From Colwellia sp. MB02u-6 (GTDB lineage Bacteria > Pseudomonadota > Gammaproteobacteria > Enterobacterales > Alteromonadaceae), in contig NZ_JACGVG010000036.1 in assembly GCF_014077095.1 (NCBI RefSeq), positions 310,001 through 374,000 on the forward strand: a stretch of 64,000 nucleotides of DNA, read 5' to 3'. A program made the translations under genes and the position numbers. Numbering within the stretch: the first letter of the stretch is position 1; each line of letters begins with the position of its first letter. Of this stretch, positions 28,297-37,523 are shown piece by piece. Below the pieces are notes generated by a model that was given only the letters and a program-made list of their open reading frames with translations, did no database searches and was not told the origin of the DNA.

Positions 28297-28830
28297 ATGA
28301 TTAATGTAAAACGTTTGCACCATGTGGCTTATCGATGTAAAGACGCAAAAGAAACCGTTGATTGGTATGAAAAACATTTGAATATGGCACTTACTGTCGC
28401 CATTGCCGAAAATGAGGTACCGTCAACAAAAGCACCCGATCCCTACATGCATATATTTTTAGACGCCGGTATGGGCAATGTGTTGGCCTTTTTTGAGATC
28501 CCCAATTCTCCTGATATGGGCCGAGATGAAAATACCCCAGAATGGGTACAACATATAGCATTAGAAGTTGAAAATGTTGACGCGTTAATTTCAGCAAAAA
28601 GCGATTTACAAGCACACGGCTTAGACGTTTTAGGCCCAGTTAATCATGGTGTATTTAAGTCTATTTATTTCTTTGATCCTAACGGCCACCGCTTAGAATT
28701 AGCCGCTAATATCGGTACCATAGAACAATATGCAGAACTTAAACGGGTAGCGGCATTAATGGTTGAAGAATGGTCACAAACTAAACAAGCGCCAACCCAT
28801 GCAGCTTGGTTGCATCACCTAGACGACTAA
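28297..28830 (+). CDS. VOC (glyoxalase/bleomycin-resistance) family protein
   Basis: A 177-residue protein with the vicinal-oxygen-chelate fold. Putative metal ligands are His8 or His9 (RLHHVAYRC), His52 (YMHIF), His in WVQHIALEV and Glu in GHRLELAAN. It starts ATG ATT AAT with a weak ribosome site. The family includes dioxygenases, glyoxalases and resistance proteins; the substrate cannot be inferred. Single gene, followed by the Csr-type RNA. Confidence 0.85.
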   Translation: MINVKRLHHVAYRCKDAKETVDWYEKHLNMALTVAIAENEVPSTKAPDPYMHIFLDAGMGNVLAFFEIPNSPDMGRDENTPEWVQHIALEVENVDALISAKSDLQAHGLDVLGPVNHGVFKSIYFFDPNGHRLELAANIGTIEQYAELKRVAALMVEEWSQTKQAPTHAAWLHHLDD

Positions 28831-29003
28831 GGCATAAAAACAGCGCTACAAGCCTCTATTAACGCAAGATTTCGTCAATAGGGGGGAGAAAAACATTGCC
28901 ATTTGCCAACTTTGATAAACATTAAGCCATGTAATTCCATGTTAAAAAATAAATTACACTTCTTAACAAATAATTACAATTAAAAACAAAGACTTGCTAA
29001 GGG

Positions 29004-29039: not shown

Positions 29040-29067
29040 TTGAAGCTTTACTCAACTCACGTACAGT
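29040..29067 (+). promoter_or_regulatory. Candidate sigma-70 promoter of the Csr-type RNA
   Basis: TTGAAG at 29040-29045 and TACAGT at 29062-29067 are separated by 16 bases, placing transcription start near 29074-29076. The assignment rests on these hexamers and the end of the structured RNA. Confidence 0.4.
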
Positions 29068-29074
29068 ATGGCTG

Positions 29075-29422
29075 GCTACATAGATAGCACTCAACAAAAT
29101 GGATAGCATTTGCACGGAAAGCAATAAGCGTTAATTAACGCAGTATATTATTTAAAATATGGATTGTTTACTAAAACTCAGGATGAGTACTGAAATATTT
29201 AGCCCAAAAGGGTATCAGGGATAGCCCCAAAAAGTGTCAGGATGACCGAAAAAAATAAAATTTAGTACAAAATAATAATAACAATAAAAATAAGATTAAA
29301 AATTATAAAGTTCACATGGATTGTAACAAAAGGCTAGGACAGCCACTTAAGAGTCGGAACTATAGATGTTGGCTTATGCTGCATTTCTTCCCAAAAGCGA
29401 CGTTATTAACGTCGCTTTTTTT
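29075..29422 (+). ncRNA. csrC: CsrB/CsrC-family CsrA-sequestering RNA
   Basis: About 350 bases with no protein-like frame carry nine GGA motifs (29101, 29116, 29161, 29181, 29219, 29240, 29318, 29337, 29356). Many sit in small hairpin loops: ACTC-AGGAT-GAGT, GTC-AGGAT-GAC, GGCT-AGGAC-AGCC, AGT-CGGA-ACT, ACA-TGGAT-TGT and TTGC-ACGGAAA-GCAA. CAGGATGA occurs twice. The region ends in a strong terminator. This is the pattern of CsrB/CsrC RNAs, which titrate the translational regulator CsrA. It lies directly upstream of yihI, exactly where csrC lies in E. coli. Length is close to E. coli CsrB. The 5' end is uncertain. Confidence 0.82.
29393..29422 (+). terminator. Rho-independent terminator of the Csr-type RNA
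   Basis: A perfect 12-bp stem (AAAAGCGACGTT / AACGTCGCTTTT) with a 3-base loop is followed by a run of T. No gene ends on this strand nearby, so it belongs to the ncRNA. Confidence 0.92.
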
Positions 29423-29491
29423 CTTTCTATCGCTGTTTAGCGTAGAATGACGTAAAATGAAAGCAATTGTTTATTATTTTAAGTTATTACT

Positions 29492-30067
29492 ATGTCTCGT
29501 ACTAAAAAATCACGCAAACCGGGTACCGGTTCTCTTGGCATCGTTAAAGATGACAACAAAAAATTAGTCGCACCCACACCTCGCAGAGCAAAGAAAACAA
29601 ACGGTAAAGAGCCGGGTAACCGCCAAAAAGAGGCCAGCCCTGTCATGGTTAATGGCCAGAACTCTGGCAAAAACAAGGATCCCCGCATTGGTAACAAAAC
29701 ACCTATTGATTTAGGCAAAAAAGTAACTGCGCCGATCAAAACTAAACCAACTAAAAAAGTGCAAGACAACTCACCCATTGCAGCAATTCGTGTCGTTGAA
29801 GCCAGTGAGTCATTAGCCGAGCAATTAAGCCGTATTGAACAAGATCCTAGATTGCTTGAAATACTTGAAAAGCAAGATGATGACCTAGAACTAACAGCAG
29901 AAGATGTTAGTTATTTCAATACGTTAATGGAGCAACATGAAAAAATTAGTCAAGCATTAGGTCTTGATGATGAAGATGAAGATGAAATTGTAGCACCCAA
30001 TAAAAAGTCAGACTCTGAAGATGACTTATGGGACAAGTTCGATAAAAGTGATTTATCAAAATTTTAA
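29492..30067 (+). CDS. yihI: Der GTPase-activating protein YihI
   Basis: A 191-residue protein with a highly basic, disordered N-terminus (SRTKKSRKPGTGSLGIVK) and an acidic C-terminal half, the composition of YihI. YihI stimulates the GTPase Der (EngA) and so affects 50S ribosome assembly. Gene order Csr-RNA, yihI, DUF2489, hemN follows the E. coli csrC-yihI-hemN arrangement. The ATG start follows the terminator of the ncRNA by 70 bp. Confidence 0.9.
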   Translation: MSRTKKSRKPGTGSLGIVKDDNKKLVAPTPRRAKKTNGKEPGNRQKEASPVMVNGQNSGKNKDPRIGNKTPIDLGKKVTAPIKTKPTKKVQDNSPIAAIRVVEASESLAEQLSRIEQDPRLLEILEKQDDDLELTAEDVSYFNTLMEQHEKISQALGLDDEDEDEIVAPNKKSDSEDDLWDKFDKSDLSKF

Positions 30068-33518: not shown

Positions 33519-36500
33519 TTATTTTTGGCGTCTTCTTAAGAAAGCCAAAGGCAATAACAATAGGCCTAACCAGCCCATAGCGCCACCACCACTACTTTTA
33601 CGTGAAACAGGCACTGTAGGTATTGCTTCATTAATCACATTAACCGTTTGTGATACAGAAACTGAATCAGTTCCATCATTCACTGTGACTGTGAATGTTA
33701 AGCTTGCGTTGCTGTCAATTGATGGAGGCGTAAATGACATCACACTTTGGTCGGTATCAGTAAGAGTGGCAGCTGGACCAGACGTTTGTTGCCAGTTGTA
33801 TGACAAGGCATCGCCATTTCTGTCAGAGGCGACAGCAGTAAGCGAGCTAGTTGCTGATTCAGTTATGCTGCTGGTACCGGTGACACTGACGATTGGAAGT
33901 ACATTGTCACAAATAGCAATGTTTCCTGCTACCACTTTAGAGAAAACGGGCGAAGCAATATTGCTAATAGTCACTTGGTCAATTACCCAACCAAAGTCAG
34001 CTACAGAACCATCCGAAGCGATCCTGAAACGAAGCCTTGCCGTGTTACCATTAAGGGCGGTCCCAAAGTTAACTTTTTCCATATTACCGGCAGAAGTAGC
34101 AAGATCACCATTGATGCCAGTAAATGTGCCTCTGGTACTACCTAATGCTTGAGCAGGATTGGGTTGTAGTGTTGCAGTATAACCGACATCAAATGTTCCC
34201 CCTACCGAGGTGACATCTACCCATTCACCGCCGTTAAGACTGATCTCAATTACGCCACCATCCCACGTTTCTTCTAACCAATAGAAATGCCAGAAACTCA
34301 TTTCGAAGTTACCGCCATACCCTATCTCAAAAGTATCGGTCTCATAAGCGGCATCTGATTCAAAGTCATTGTTGTTTAAAAACATGGCTTGTGTGCCTAA
34401 GTCAACGCCAGGATTCAACGAAGCAAAGAAACCTATATTGTCACTGTTATCTATGCTTCTGGTACCTGCGGCGAATTCACCACCACGCAAGATGTTTTCT
34501 TTCCAGTTATCAAGTAAAGCGATAGACTCCATATCATCAGTGCTTTTTTGACTCACTGGCGGCAGCTTTTCAAAGGCCAGATTAACCAGAGCTGTTAGAG
34601 ATAAATCTGTTGCTTCTTGAATATCATCACCTTCCACTGCTTCTAGAAAGCTAACCTTTAATTCCAACGTATCTGCAGTTTCGGCATTATTTAGAGTGAT
34701 CATAATAGGGACACTGATGGCACTTTCAAATGGACTAACATCGGCAAACGTAACCATACCATCATTTTCTAGGGTTACATCATGATCGCTAACCACTTCA
34801 ATTTTAGCGGTTACGCCTGCAAGAAGTTCGCTACCGGCATTATTAATGGTGACACTTACTGTACCTGTTTCGCCTTGATCTAATACACCGTCATCTGAGC
34901 AGTAACCTAAAGTATTGCCGCTAAATGTGGGGTTCAAACTAAAGCTACTAGCATTATAAGTAGCGAGTTGAGTTTCAAATGACTCAATCACACCTACATT
35001 ATCTCTGCTGAATCTATCCGGTGAGACGGCTCCTAAACCTAATCCACGTTTGGCAAAAGCCGCCAGGGCTAGGGTGAAATCATCAGAGTCGGTGGCTAAT
35101 ATATTGGCTAGTATGGCGTCTCTGGCTTCAGTAAAGGTCGGTGAGATTGGCGTCATTTTATATCCAGCAACCAGGTAATTAGCCATTTTATCTTGGGCAA
35201 TGGTAAAACCATGCGTATTGATTAAAGACACATACACTTCCCACAAACTGGCGGCCCAAATTTCCCCTGCTGCATGTGGTGAACCACCATTGGTTGCAGC
35301 TAAGCCAGGAGGCGTTGAACCACTTTCAATATATTGGAAGGTTAATGGATTAACTGCCATGTCGGTAGAATAAGGTGCTCTACGAATACCGGTGTCGAAG
35401 TTTTCTACATAGGTACCGGTTGGGTATGATAGGCCAAATTCTTGGTTGTCAGGGATCGCTAAATCGGACTCTAAGGCTAAGAACATTAGAGAGTGGAAGT
35501 CTCCCCAACCTTCTCCCATGTTACGTCCCTGGAAATTGTTGAGTCCATTAGCGTTACCTATAAGACGGTTCGAAATGTAATGGCCCCATTCGTGGGCTAC
35601 GATGCCATTATCAAAGCTTGAGTCTTTTAATGGAAAGTTACTGAACATCTCCACTGTGACAGCCGTACCATTATCAATTAGGTCATATATGGCATTACCT
35701 TCGGCAAAGTTAAGACCGATGCTGGGGATAGTGACAGCAGCATCTGCGCCGCCCATAGGAGCGGGAGTTCCATCATCATTGTTATTAACAATGATCGCGG
35801 CTACAGCTCCGGCATTTTGTGCGTTAAATACTTTACCGGTAAAGTTACAGGCACCACGGTCAATTATGGCTATTTTTCCAGCTAAGTCAGGACCGTTTAT
35901 AGTAGATTCACAACCATCATTGATTGGCGCAGTATCATCTGCCAAACGTATAACATTGCCTATTATATCACTATACTGTTGGGCACCAAAAGCGGCGAGT
36001 TGAGTTGACTCTAAAAGTCCGATGCTTGCATCAGAGGTCACTGTCCCTCCAAAATCCACCCCAAGGGTTGCGTCTTTACTGTTCCACAAAAACTGCTGCA
36101 TCCTAGGGCTACCACCGTCTGCAGGGGTACTCATGTTAGCATTATTCAATCCCGAATAATCCTGTGCTTGGACTTCTAGAGGATCGCCTTCTACCCCCCC
36201 ACGACCAGAGTTTGATAACTGGGCGTTGCCCGCCGCTTCATCAAAACCATAATCATAAAAGAAATCATGCATGAAGTTGGTCATGTAAAACAGGTTAACT
36301 ATCGCTGATTTTCTGTTGGCAAAACTATTATCTCTTTCGCCTGAACGAAATTCATAGTCAAACGTCTGACTAGCCGTCACCTCTGCGGTAAAATCACCAT
36401 TGGTAAAACCTTGGGGGGGAATGACATCGGCATAGGCAAAAACGTTATTACCTGAAGTGATTACGGCATCTTCAGTTAGCCAAGGATCTTGAGTACTGAT

Positions 36501-37523
36501 TTTACTAAACTGAGAAATCGTTACCAATGGCATATCGACGATAGTCGTGGTATCTGGGCCAACAGTCAGTTTAGGGATAACATCACCGTGCGGGCCTTCC
36601 ATTGGGTAGCCGTCTTGGTTAGCGAATACCCGGTAAGTGAACTCGTTATCGTTTGCGCTAAGAGTGTGTTTAAACAATACCTTGTTAGTCTTAGAGTCTA
36701 TGACATAACTGAATAACTCACTGTCTGTACTATTTTTGTTAGCAAGGTCTATCTCAACATAATATGCACTTCTTAATCCATCGTTGGCGTCAAATATAAC
36801 CTTCTTCGCTCTCGGCTGTCCGACTATTATTTTGTTACCTCTCAGGTTTGAAATGTCAAACACTTGATATTTGCCAGCGGCTTCCACTTCGGTTAGTGCG
36901 ACATCTGTACTGTTTTTAGTCAGAGTGTTGATAGCCGTTTTTATGGCTTGCTCAGCATTTCCTAAGTTAGCAAACAGACTCAGGTCATGGCTGTTGGCTT
37001 TGTTTTTTGAGAAGTAGCCTGATGATGCAACTAAGTTAAGCTCTCTGTCTAGCATCACGTTCACTTCACGGTTGAATACTTCAATACCGTTTATTTTTTG
37101 TCTATATTTTGCAACTATTGCGCCTTTCTTGATATCATGCAAATTGACCATTTCAGCTGTTTCAAAAGCCCCTTTTACATTACTTACGCCGGTTAATGCC
37201 GTCATATAATGTGCGGCACTAAAGGCCACATGCTGCTCTTTAGCTATACCTGTCAGATTAGGCGTAGGTGTGTTTTTATTTGCCCATAAGAAAGTCGCTT
37301 TACCTAAGTTTTTATCGAAATGACTGCGCATTCCAGATTGGCTAGGTGCTTTGGCTAGTGCCTGTTGTTTACCAAAATCAAAACTGCTAAAGGCTGCAAC
37401 ACTAGATGTGTTATTTTGATTCAGCATATTTGACATTAATTTAACTTCTGTGGCATCTGCAGCAGTGGCTGCTAAAATAAGCCCAATAGAAGCAGATATA
37501 AGTGTAGGTTTAAAATAATTCAT
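33519..37523 (-). CDS. Secreted M36 (fungalysin) metalloprotease with PA domain and GlyGly-CTERM tail
   Basis: A 1334-residue exoprotease. A signal peptide (1-25) is followed by a fungalysin/thermolysin propeptide region (to ~300). A PA domain is inserted at about 510-625 (CESTINGPDLAGKIAIIDRG), and the zinc motif is His644-Glu-Trp-Gly-His648. Beta-sandwich regions follow, then a PKD/Ig-like domain near 1210-1295. The protein ends with SSGGGAMGWLGLLLLPL plus an arginine-rich tip, a GlyGly-CTERM sorting signal recognised by rhombosortase in Vibrio and Shewanella. It should degrade extracellular protein after export by a type II system. Own terminator; no partner genes. Confidence 0.93.
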   Translation of the reverse strand: MNYFKPTLISASIGLILAATAADATEVKLMSNMLNQNNTSSVAAFSSFDFGKQQALAKAPSQSGMRSHFDKNLGKATFLWANKNTPTPNLTGIAKEQHVAFSAAHYMTALTGVSNVKGAFETAEMVNLHDIKKGAIVAKYRQKINGIEVFNREVNVMLDRELNLVASSGYFSKNKANSHDLSLFANLGNAEQAIKTAINTLTKNSTDVALTEVEAAGKYQVFDISNLRGNKIIVGQPRAKKVIFDANDGLRSAYYVEIDLANKNSTDSELFSYVIDSKTNKVLFKHTLSANDNEFTYRVFANQDGYPMEGPHGDVIPKLTVGPDTTTIVDMPLVTISQFSKISTQDPWLTEDAVITSGNNVFAYADVIPPQGFTNGDFTAEVTASQTFDYEFRSGERDNSFANRKSAIVNLFYMTNFMHDFFYDYGFDEAAGNAQLSNSGRGGVEGDPLEVQAQDYSGLNNANMSTPADGGSPRMQQFLWNSKDATLGVDFGGTVTSDASIGLLESTQLAAFGAQQYSDIIGNVIRLADDTAPINDGCESTINGPDLAGKIAIIDRGACNFTGKVFNAQNAGAVAAIIVNNNDDGTPAPMGGADAAVTIPSIGLNFAEGNAIYDLIDNGTAVTVEMFSNFPLKDSSFDNGIVAHEWGHYISNRLIGNANGLNNFQGRNMGEGWGDFHSLMFLALESDLAIPDNQEFGLSYPTGTYVENFDTGIRRAPYSTDMAVNPLTFQYIESGSTPPGLAATNGGSPHAAGEIWAASLWEVYVSLINTHGFTIAQDKMANYLVAGYKMTPISPTFTEARDAILANILATDSDDFTLALAAFAKRGLGLGAVSPDRFSRDNVGVIESFETQLATYNASSFSLNPTFSGNTLGYCSDDGVLDQGETGTVSVTINNAGSELLAGVTAKIEVVSDHDVTLENDGMVTFADVSPFESAISVPIMITLNNAETADTLELKVSFLEAVEGDDIQEATDLSLTALVNLAFEKLPPVSQKSTDDMESIALLDNWKENILRGGEFAAGTRSIDNSDNIGFFASLNPGVDLGTQAMFLNNNDFESDAAYETDTFEIGYGGNFEMSFWHFYWLEETWDGGVIEISLNGGEWVDVTSVGGTFDVGYTATLQPNPAQALGSTRGTFTGINGDLATSAGNMEKVNFGTALNGNTARLRFRIASDGSVADFGWVIDQVTISNIASPVFSKVVAGNIAICDNVLPIVSVTGTSSITESATSSLTAVASDRNGDALSYNWQQTSGPAATLTDTDQSVMSFTPPSIDSNASLTFTVTVNDGTDSVSVSQTVNVINEAIPTVPVSRKSSGGGAMGWLGLLLLPLAFLRRRQK

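Follow-up and report, generated by a model that had tools for sequence, protein, structure and literature searches.

In the marine, Colwellia-group genome of Colwellia sp. MB02u-6, the DNA between a glyoxalase-fold gene and yihI carries no annotation from position 29075 to 29422 of the window, by which the whole analyzed stretch of 64,000 nucleotides is meant. Csr RNAs were reportedly predicted in gammaproteobacteria by Kulkarni et al. as early as 2006, and the question raised by this locus is whether the unannotated region encodes such an RNA and, if so, which one.

The first property of the region is its content of GGA motifs. A preliminary description of the locus had counted nine in about 350 bases, and this count is correct, with motifs starting at 29101, 29116, 29161, 29181, 29219, 29240, 29318, 29337, and 29356. 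When the region was shuffled 2000 times with dinucleotides preserved, 3 shuffles had at least nine GGA (mean 4.2), as did 31 of 2000 mononucleotide shuffles; chance was rejected as the source of the excess on these counts. Compared with all 348-nt segments on the forward strand of the 64 kb, the region ranks first (9 GGA versus a mean of 1.8). On the reverse strand, segments starting at 35828 to 35878 (together spanning 35828-36225) also contain nine GGA and are located inside a large ORF on the same strand (33519-37523). The description had also placed many of the GGA in hairpin loops. Loops of this kind are present, while "many" was too strong: three of the nine GGA satisfy a strict rule (stem of at least four pairs, GGA within the loop), and four of nine lie in loops once conserved stems of two to three pairs are included. 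Three strict hairpins are the maximum of the 64-kb window on both strands, a number matched by 3 of 2000 dinucleotide shuffles. The features of the locus are compiled in the table.

Table. Features of the yihI upstream region in Colwellia sp. MB02u-6 (positions in the window; features of the RNA and its control region are predictions)
Feature	Position	Strand	Remarks
Glyoxalase-fold gene	28297-28830		upstream neighbor of the csrC candidate
Remnant of csrC-type UvrY box, decayed	28913..28931	+	placed by alignment; window reads TGATAAACATTAAGCCATG
A+T-rich upstream element	28950..28990	+	TTACA..TTAACA..TTACA; 90% mean column conservation, 17 genomes
Predicted promoter	29040..29067	+	-35 TTGAAG 29040-29045, 16 nt, -10 TACAGT 29062-29067
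csrC-type small RNA, predicted transcript	29074..29422	+	about 349 nt; nine GGA; upstream of yihI in 17/17 genus genomes examined
GGA in loop of conserved 2-pair stem	29116..29118	+	GGA in 17/17; stem invariant
Hairpin ACTC-AGGAT-GAGT, predicted CsrA-site type	29176..29188	+	double-sided changes in 3/4 pairs; GGA in 15/17
Hairpin GTC-AGGAT-GAC, predicted CsrA-site type	29236..29246	+	stem invariant in 17; GGA in 16/17
Hairpin GGCT-AGGAC-AGCC, predicted CsrA-site type	29332..29344	+	double-sided changes in 2/4 pairs; GGA in 16/17
Intrinsic terminator	29393..29422	+	12-pair hairpin 29393-29419, T run to 29422
yihI, Der GTPase-activating protein	29492..30067	+	Pfam PF04220; NCBIfam NF003560, 103.5 bits (cut-off 90)

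The region had further been described as lacking a coding frame, ending in a strong terminator and following a plausible promoter, and all three statements hold. Inside 29060-29430, the longest ORFs comprise 21 aa on the forward and 19 aa on the reverse strand. In the RNA rows of 17 relatives, the longest forward ORF ranges from 18 to 57 aa and differs in place and length from row to row; a coding region was rejected on the basis of these short and inconsistent frames. The terminator was located at the very end of the region and is conserved. A scan for consensus promoters did not list TTGAAG-16-TACAGT, though the corresponding -35 and -10 elements are conserved across the genus alignment. The -10 element reads TAAAGT in 14 of 17 genus genomes as well as in E. 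coli csrC, and TACAGT is found only in the window and the two nearest relatives. Judging by the spacing between -10 and +1 in E. coli, transcription would start at about 29074. Upstream of the promoter, the most conserved element is the A+T-rich stretch 28950-28990, which is intact in the window and has a column conservation of 90%, compared with 54% before the UvrY box (see below) and 63% just after it. It is possibly the site of some regulator.

Within the genus, which also includes Cognaticolwellia strains, the RNA region is present upstream of yihI in all 17 genomes examined, the genome of strain MB02u-6 being counted. In alignment A3, which comprises the RNAs of these 17 genomes and is the source of the counts for GGA conservation, each of the nine sites is present in 12 to 17 rows, and GGA triplets are 93% conserved versus 56% for the remaining triplets, a comparison in which the terminator is included. 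Outside the terminator, the alignment supports 31 stem pairs, 11 of which have changed on both sides, and 98.7% of the cells are paired. The covariation score of these stems was reached by none of 500 shuffles, a comparison that is favored by the derivation of the structure from the same alignment and inflated by related rows. The fold of the single sequence does not stand out (z -1.73) and is matched by 5 of 100 shuffles. In alignment A5, no block is better conserved than the one that includes the hairpin at 29236..29246. The comparison of yihI upstream regions that had been proposed at the outset has thus returned conserved GGA sites and stems throughout the 17 genus genomes, and the RNA is also linked to yihI in Thalassotalea and other kin.

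Searches with existing RNA models did not identify the region, for which Rfam gave no match at cut-off. The Rfam models for CsrB and CsrC, put forward earlier as a check of the candidate, did not recover it: the CsrC model reached 9.9 bits (cut-off 61) and covered the terminator only, and CsrB was not listed up to an E-value of 10. With E. coli csrC as positive control, the CsrC model gave 278.7 bits. The test is a weak one because the RNA that Erwinia endophytica carries at yihI (L172:2608-2847) also falls short of the cut-off of this model, with 46.7 bits. The yihI-linked RNA of Yersinia aldovae (L174:2408-2675) reached 225.7 bits with its own family RF02767, the cut-off of which is 279. In 20 named yihI loci including enteric ones, neither CsrC nor CsrB was found at cut-off with Rfam. 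The cut-off of the CsrC model is a detection threshold rather than a biological definition, and the csrC candidate lies below it.

The distribution of the RNA beyond the genus was analyzed with a model termed R1, which represents about 235 nt of the 3' part and was built from 28 yihI-linked RNAs of Colwellia, Thalassotalea, Thalassomonas, and kin. These rows come from the named yihI loci, which are the best 80 of 308 from one genome-contig scan; they were picked for a placeable terminator, and several row ends were set by hand. R1 is blind to synteny, and the window's own sequence was left out of its training. On the window, it scored 197 bits and covered 29177-29421. Among the best 80 of 308 yihI loci, the closest of which belong to Colwellia sp. 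MB3u-45 and C1TZA3, R1 matches upstream of yihI and on the same strand were obtained at 43 loci (E ≤3e-5), 28 of which are the training loci; at the other 37, R1 gave no clear match. A terminator following at least six A(n)GGA motifs was found upstream on the yihI strand at 43 of these best 80 of 308 loci and at 0 of 80 for each of the control positions (opposite strand and two downstream), a contrast that is weakened because the terminator scan found none in most control stretches. The scan also fails at obvious loci, among them L110, L116, and L162. The yihI locus of Photobacterium marinum scored 48.6 bits with R1.

In whole genomes outside the genus, R1 found full-length matches in 17 of 43 (E ≤1e-5). 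Wherever an R1 match and yihI were both present, the match was located 61-823 nt upstream of yihI on the same strand (14 of 14 genomes, including G017 and G023 from the training set); three further genomes have an R1 match without a yihI match. Half of the outside genomes with yihI (14 of 28) gave no R1 match at E ≤1e-5, which is not proof of absence because the filters were stricter and only part of the candidates was scored; in some of these genomes (L020, L026, and L027), the DNA preceding yihI is GGA-rich by eye. In ten outside genomes, the R1 match precedes yihI by 669-823 nt, one of these (G049) with an E-value of only 0.056. At locus L029, the one of the ten in which the gap was scanned, a methyltransferase gene (PF13489; L029:799-1440) is located between the Csr-type RNA and yihI. 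These spacings bear on the possibility that the region is not a free small RNA but a long, CsrA-bound 5' leader of yihI, as the common strand and the distance of 69 nt to the yihI start might suggest. Such a leader would be interrupted by the conserved intrinsic terminator, it is at odds with the wide gaps in the ten outside genomes and with the gene that fills the gap at L029, and E. coli csrC, which occupies the same place, is annotated as a separate ncRNA. A yihI leader is extremely unlikely, and it was rejected on account of the terminator and the intervening gene at L029.

A different situation is found at 13 of the best 80 of 308 named loci, where a conserved ORF of 83-92 aa precedes yihI and R1 finds no RNA. 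All of these loci are labelled Colwellia (psychrerythraea, piezophila, demingiae, and others; e.g., L125:2619-2876, the rest among L099-L178), and the two ORFs that were scanned had no Pfam match. Judging from these loci, csrC seems to have been lost or replaced in the Colwellia group carrying the small ORF.

The predicted small RNA upstream of yihI has a probable counterpart in enteric bacteria. In E. coli K-12, the gene order is spf-yihA-csrC-yihI-hemN; csrC is on the same strand as yihI and 65 nt away from it, in agreement with the statement in the preliminary description that csrC lies just upstream of yihI. CsrC of E. coli and Salmonella (RF00084) shares with the candidate its place directly before yihI on the same strand, multiple GGA, and an intrinsic terminator, and the likeness extends to the control region, since the E. 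coli csrC control region aligns with the genus upstream region. According to the available text of PMC4682653, UvrY binds upstream of csrC at TGTGAGACATTGCCGATA in E. coli and at TGTGAGACATTGACCATT in Salmonella, and both sites are less symmetric than the csrB box. In the genus, an imperfect UvrY box of this csrC type has the consensus TGTAAGACATTGACCATT. Thirteen of the 17 genomes retain it, with no more than three of the 18 positions altered, at -567 to -578 relative to yihI. The box precedes the predicted start by about 155 nt; in E. coli, the center of the site and the annotated start of csrC are about 160 nt apart. There are also differences to CsrC: the predicted RNA is longer (about 349 versus 246 nt), its upstream neighbor is the glyoxalase-fold gene rather than yihA, the RNA body is beyond the reach of the Rfam model, and in strain MB02u-6 the box is decayed and the -10 element changed.

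On E. coli csrC, R1 gave a match of 17.8 bits (E 0.05) at the correct place and on the correct strand. The similarity of the RNA bodies is weak, and the case for orthology therefore relies less on it than on place, box, and promoter. This weak similarity would also be compatible with the independent arrival of a CsrB-type paralogue beside yihI, in which case the place shared with E. coli csrC would be a coincidence; the outside genomes with yihI and without an R1 match would fit such an origin, as would the duplication and relocation of csrB genes in Vibrio, which is described in the accessible part of PMC6262261. It is difficult to reconcile with the yihI-linked RNAs in 14 outside genomes and in Photobacterium marinum, and with a csrC-type box, a box distance, and a TAAAGT -10 element that are common to the genus and E. 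coli csrC and unlike the csrB box. Such a coincidence is very improbable.

Other components of a Csr circuit are encoded in the same genome. CsrA has one match (G000:C35:424283-424438), and UvrY, encoded directly before uvrC, was detected with NF007018 at 397 bits (cut-off 280). A second Csr-type RNA, which is CsrB-like, is located at G000:C38:146793-147119; it scored 23 bits with the Rfam CsrB model (cut-off 71), and the surrounding 826 nt contain 15 GGA. It is preceded at C38:146629-146646 by the box TGTAAGACATGTCTCACA, which is one letter off TGTAAG-N6-CTTACA; no other site in the genome matches TGTRAGACATNNCTYACA when two mismatches are allowed. According to the portions of PMC3171408 and PMC4682653 that were available, csrB genes have a box similar to TGTAAG-N6-CTTACA. 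CsrB (RF00018), including CsrB1 and CsrB2 of Shewanella, is the same kind of RNA and presumably acts in the same way, but the box of this type belongs to the RNA at C38 and not to the one at yihI.

Csr/Rsm RNAs are recognized by conserved GGA motifs above chance, by the position of these motifs in hairpin loops or single strands, by noncoding status with an own promoter and an intrinsic terminator, and by a CsrA in the same genome. The candidate combines a conserved GGA excess, four of nine GGA in the loops of conserved stems with covarying stems among them, a noncoding transcription unit as judged by sequence, and a genome with one CsrA. The linkage to yihI, the R1 matches, the place and strand shared with E. 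coli, the control region, and the presence of CsrA, UvrY, and a CsrB-like RNA make a csrC orthologue missed by Rfam the most likely explanation. The original proposal of a csrC orthologue that kept its position and diverged in sequence has gained support from the place, the -10 element, and the UvrY box of the relatives, and the low score with the Rfam model is on record beside these. Very probably, 29074-29422 is csrC of strain MB02u-6 and encodes a putative CsrA-sequestering RNA of about 349 nt, which makes the candidate a genuine, though not unexpected, addition to a known family.

One feature of CsrC, the csrC-type UvrY box, was not found upstream of the RNA in the window; it is a control feature and lies outside the RNA. 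A search of the whole genome of strain MB02u-6 that allowed two mismatches found no csrC-type box. The box is decayed in the window and in the two nearest relatives (G012 and G008), and a fourth genus genome (G016) is boxless too. The csrB-type box is present with no mismatch in strain MB02u-6 and both nearest relatives, and with at most one mismatch in 16 of 17 genus genomes. The number of GGA is 8-9 in the four boxless genomes and 9-13 in the other 13. An exact one-sided rank test of these counts gave p 0.0017, a value that is too favorable because three boxless genomes are close kin. This lower GGA number, together with the lost box and the altered -10 element restricted to the window and its two nearest relatives, might indicate that csrC is decaying in this lineage. 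However, the RNA body, its stems, and the terminator are conserved between the window and these relatives, all nine GGA are still there, and the element at 28950-28990 is intact. Decay of the gene is very unlikely. Given the decayed box, csrC probably depends on UvrY to a small degree in these genomes or is controlled in another way. A decayed box and a changed -10 element next to a retained RNA and a retained upstream element would be consistent with two CsrA sponges responding to different signals; as a tentative reading that falls somewhat short of an even chance, csrC may have been uncoupled from the BarA-UvrY switch in this lineage, with csrB still coupled to it.

The proposed action of the RNA follows that of known Csr RNAs. 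Transcription would start at about 29074 and stop at the terminator. The resulting RNA would present a maximum of nine GGA sites to CsrA dimers, including the four in loops of conserved stems, and CsrA bound in this way would be withheld from its mRNA targets. It would act jointly with the CsrB-like RNA at C38. Activation of csrC by phosphorylated UvrY, via the imperfect box near -155, would be expected in most of the examined genomes of the genus. In strain MB02u-6 and its two nearest relatives, this activation would probably be weak or replaced by other control.

Csr-type RNAs with GGA motifs have been described for other marine bacteria, namely Pf1, Pf2, and Pf3 of Pseudoalteromonas fuliginea and Aln1a-c of Alteromonas macleodii Te101 (PMC9927453, PMC11882849, and PMC5864184, each as far as its text was available). 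In the same texts, the authors found no match to Pf1 and Pf2 outside Pseudoalteromonas and partial matches to Pf3, including one in Thalassotalea sp. LPB0316. The name yihI does not occur in the available portions of these three sources, which give the places of the RNAs as locus tags, and adjacency to yihI is possible. A csrC predicted in Shewanella between mutM and SO_4727, the transcript of which is UvrY-independent, is cited in the accessible part of PMC3171408. The accessible passages on Colwellia in connection with CsrB, CsrC, or CsrA contain no description of the RNA at this locus.

The assignment would extend the range of csrC from enteric bacteria to a marine family in which its position and, among relatives of strain MB02u-6, also the box and promoter have been preserved. 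In the loci of this family that were scanned, Rfam models found nothing at cut-off, and synteny can serve as an anchor in the search for fast-diverging Csr RNAs. The yihI loci provide a natural series of states: the UvrY box is kept, it has decayed as in the lineage of strain MB02u-6, or the RNA has seemingly been replaced by a small ORF, as at 13 of the best 80 of 308 loci. Such a series allows a comparative approach to the question of why bacteria retain two CsrA sponges.
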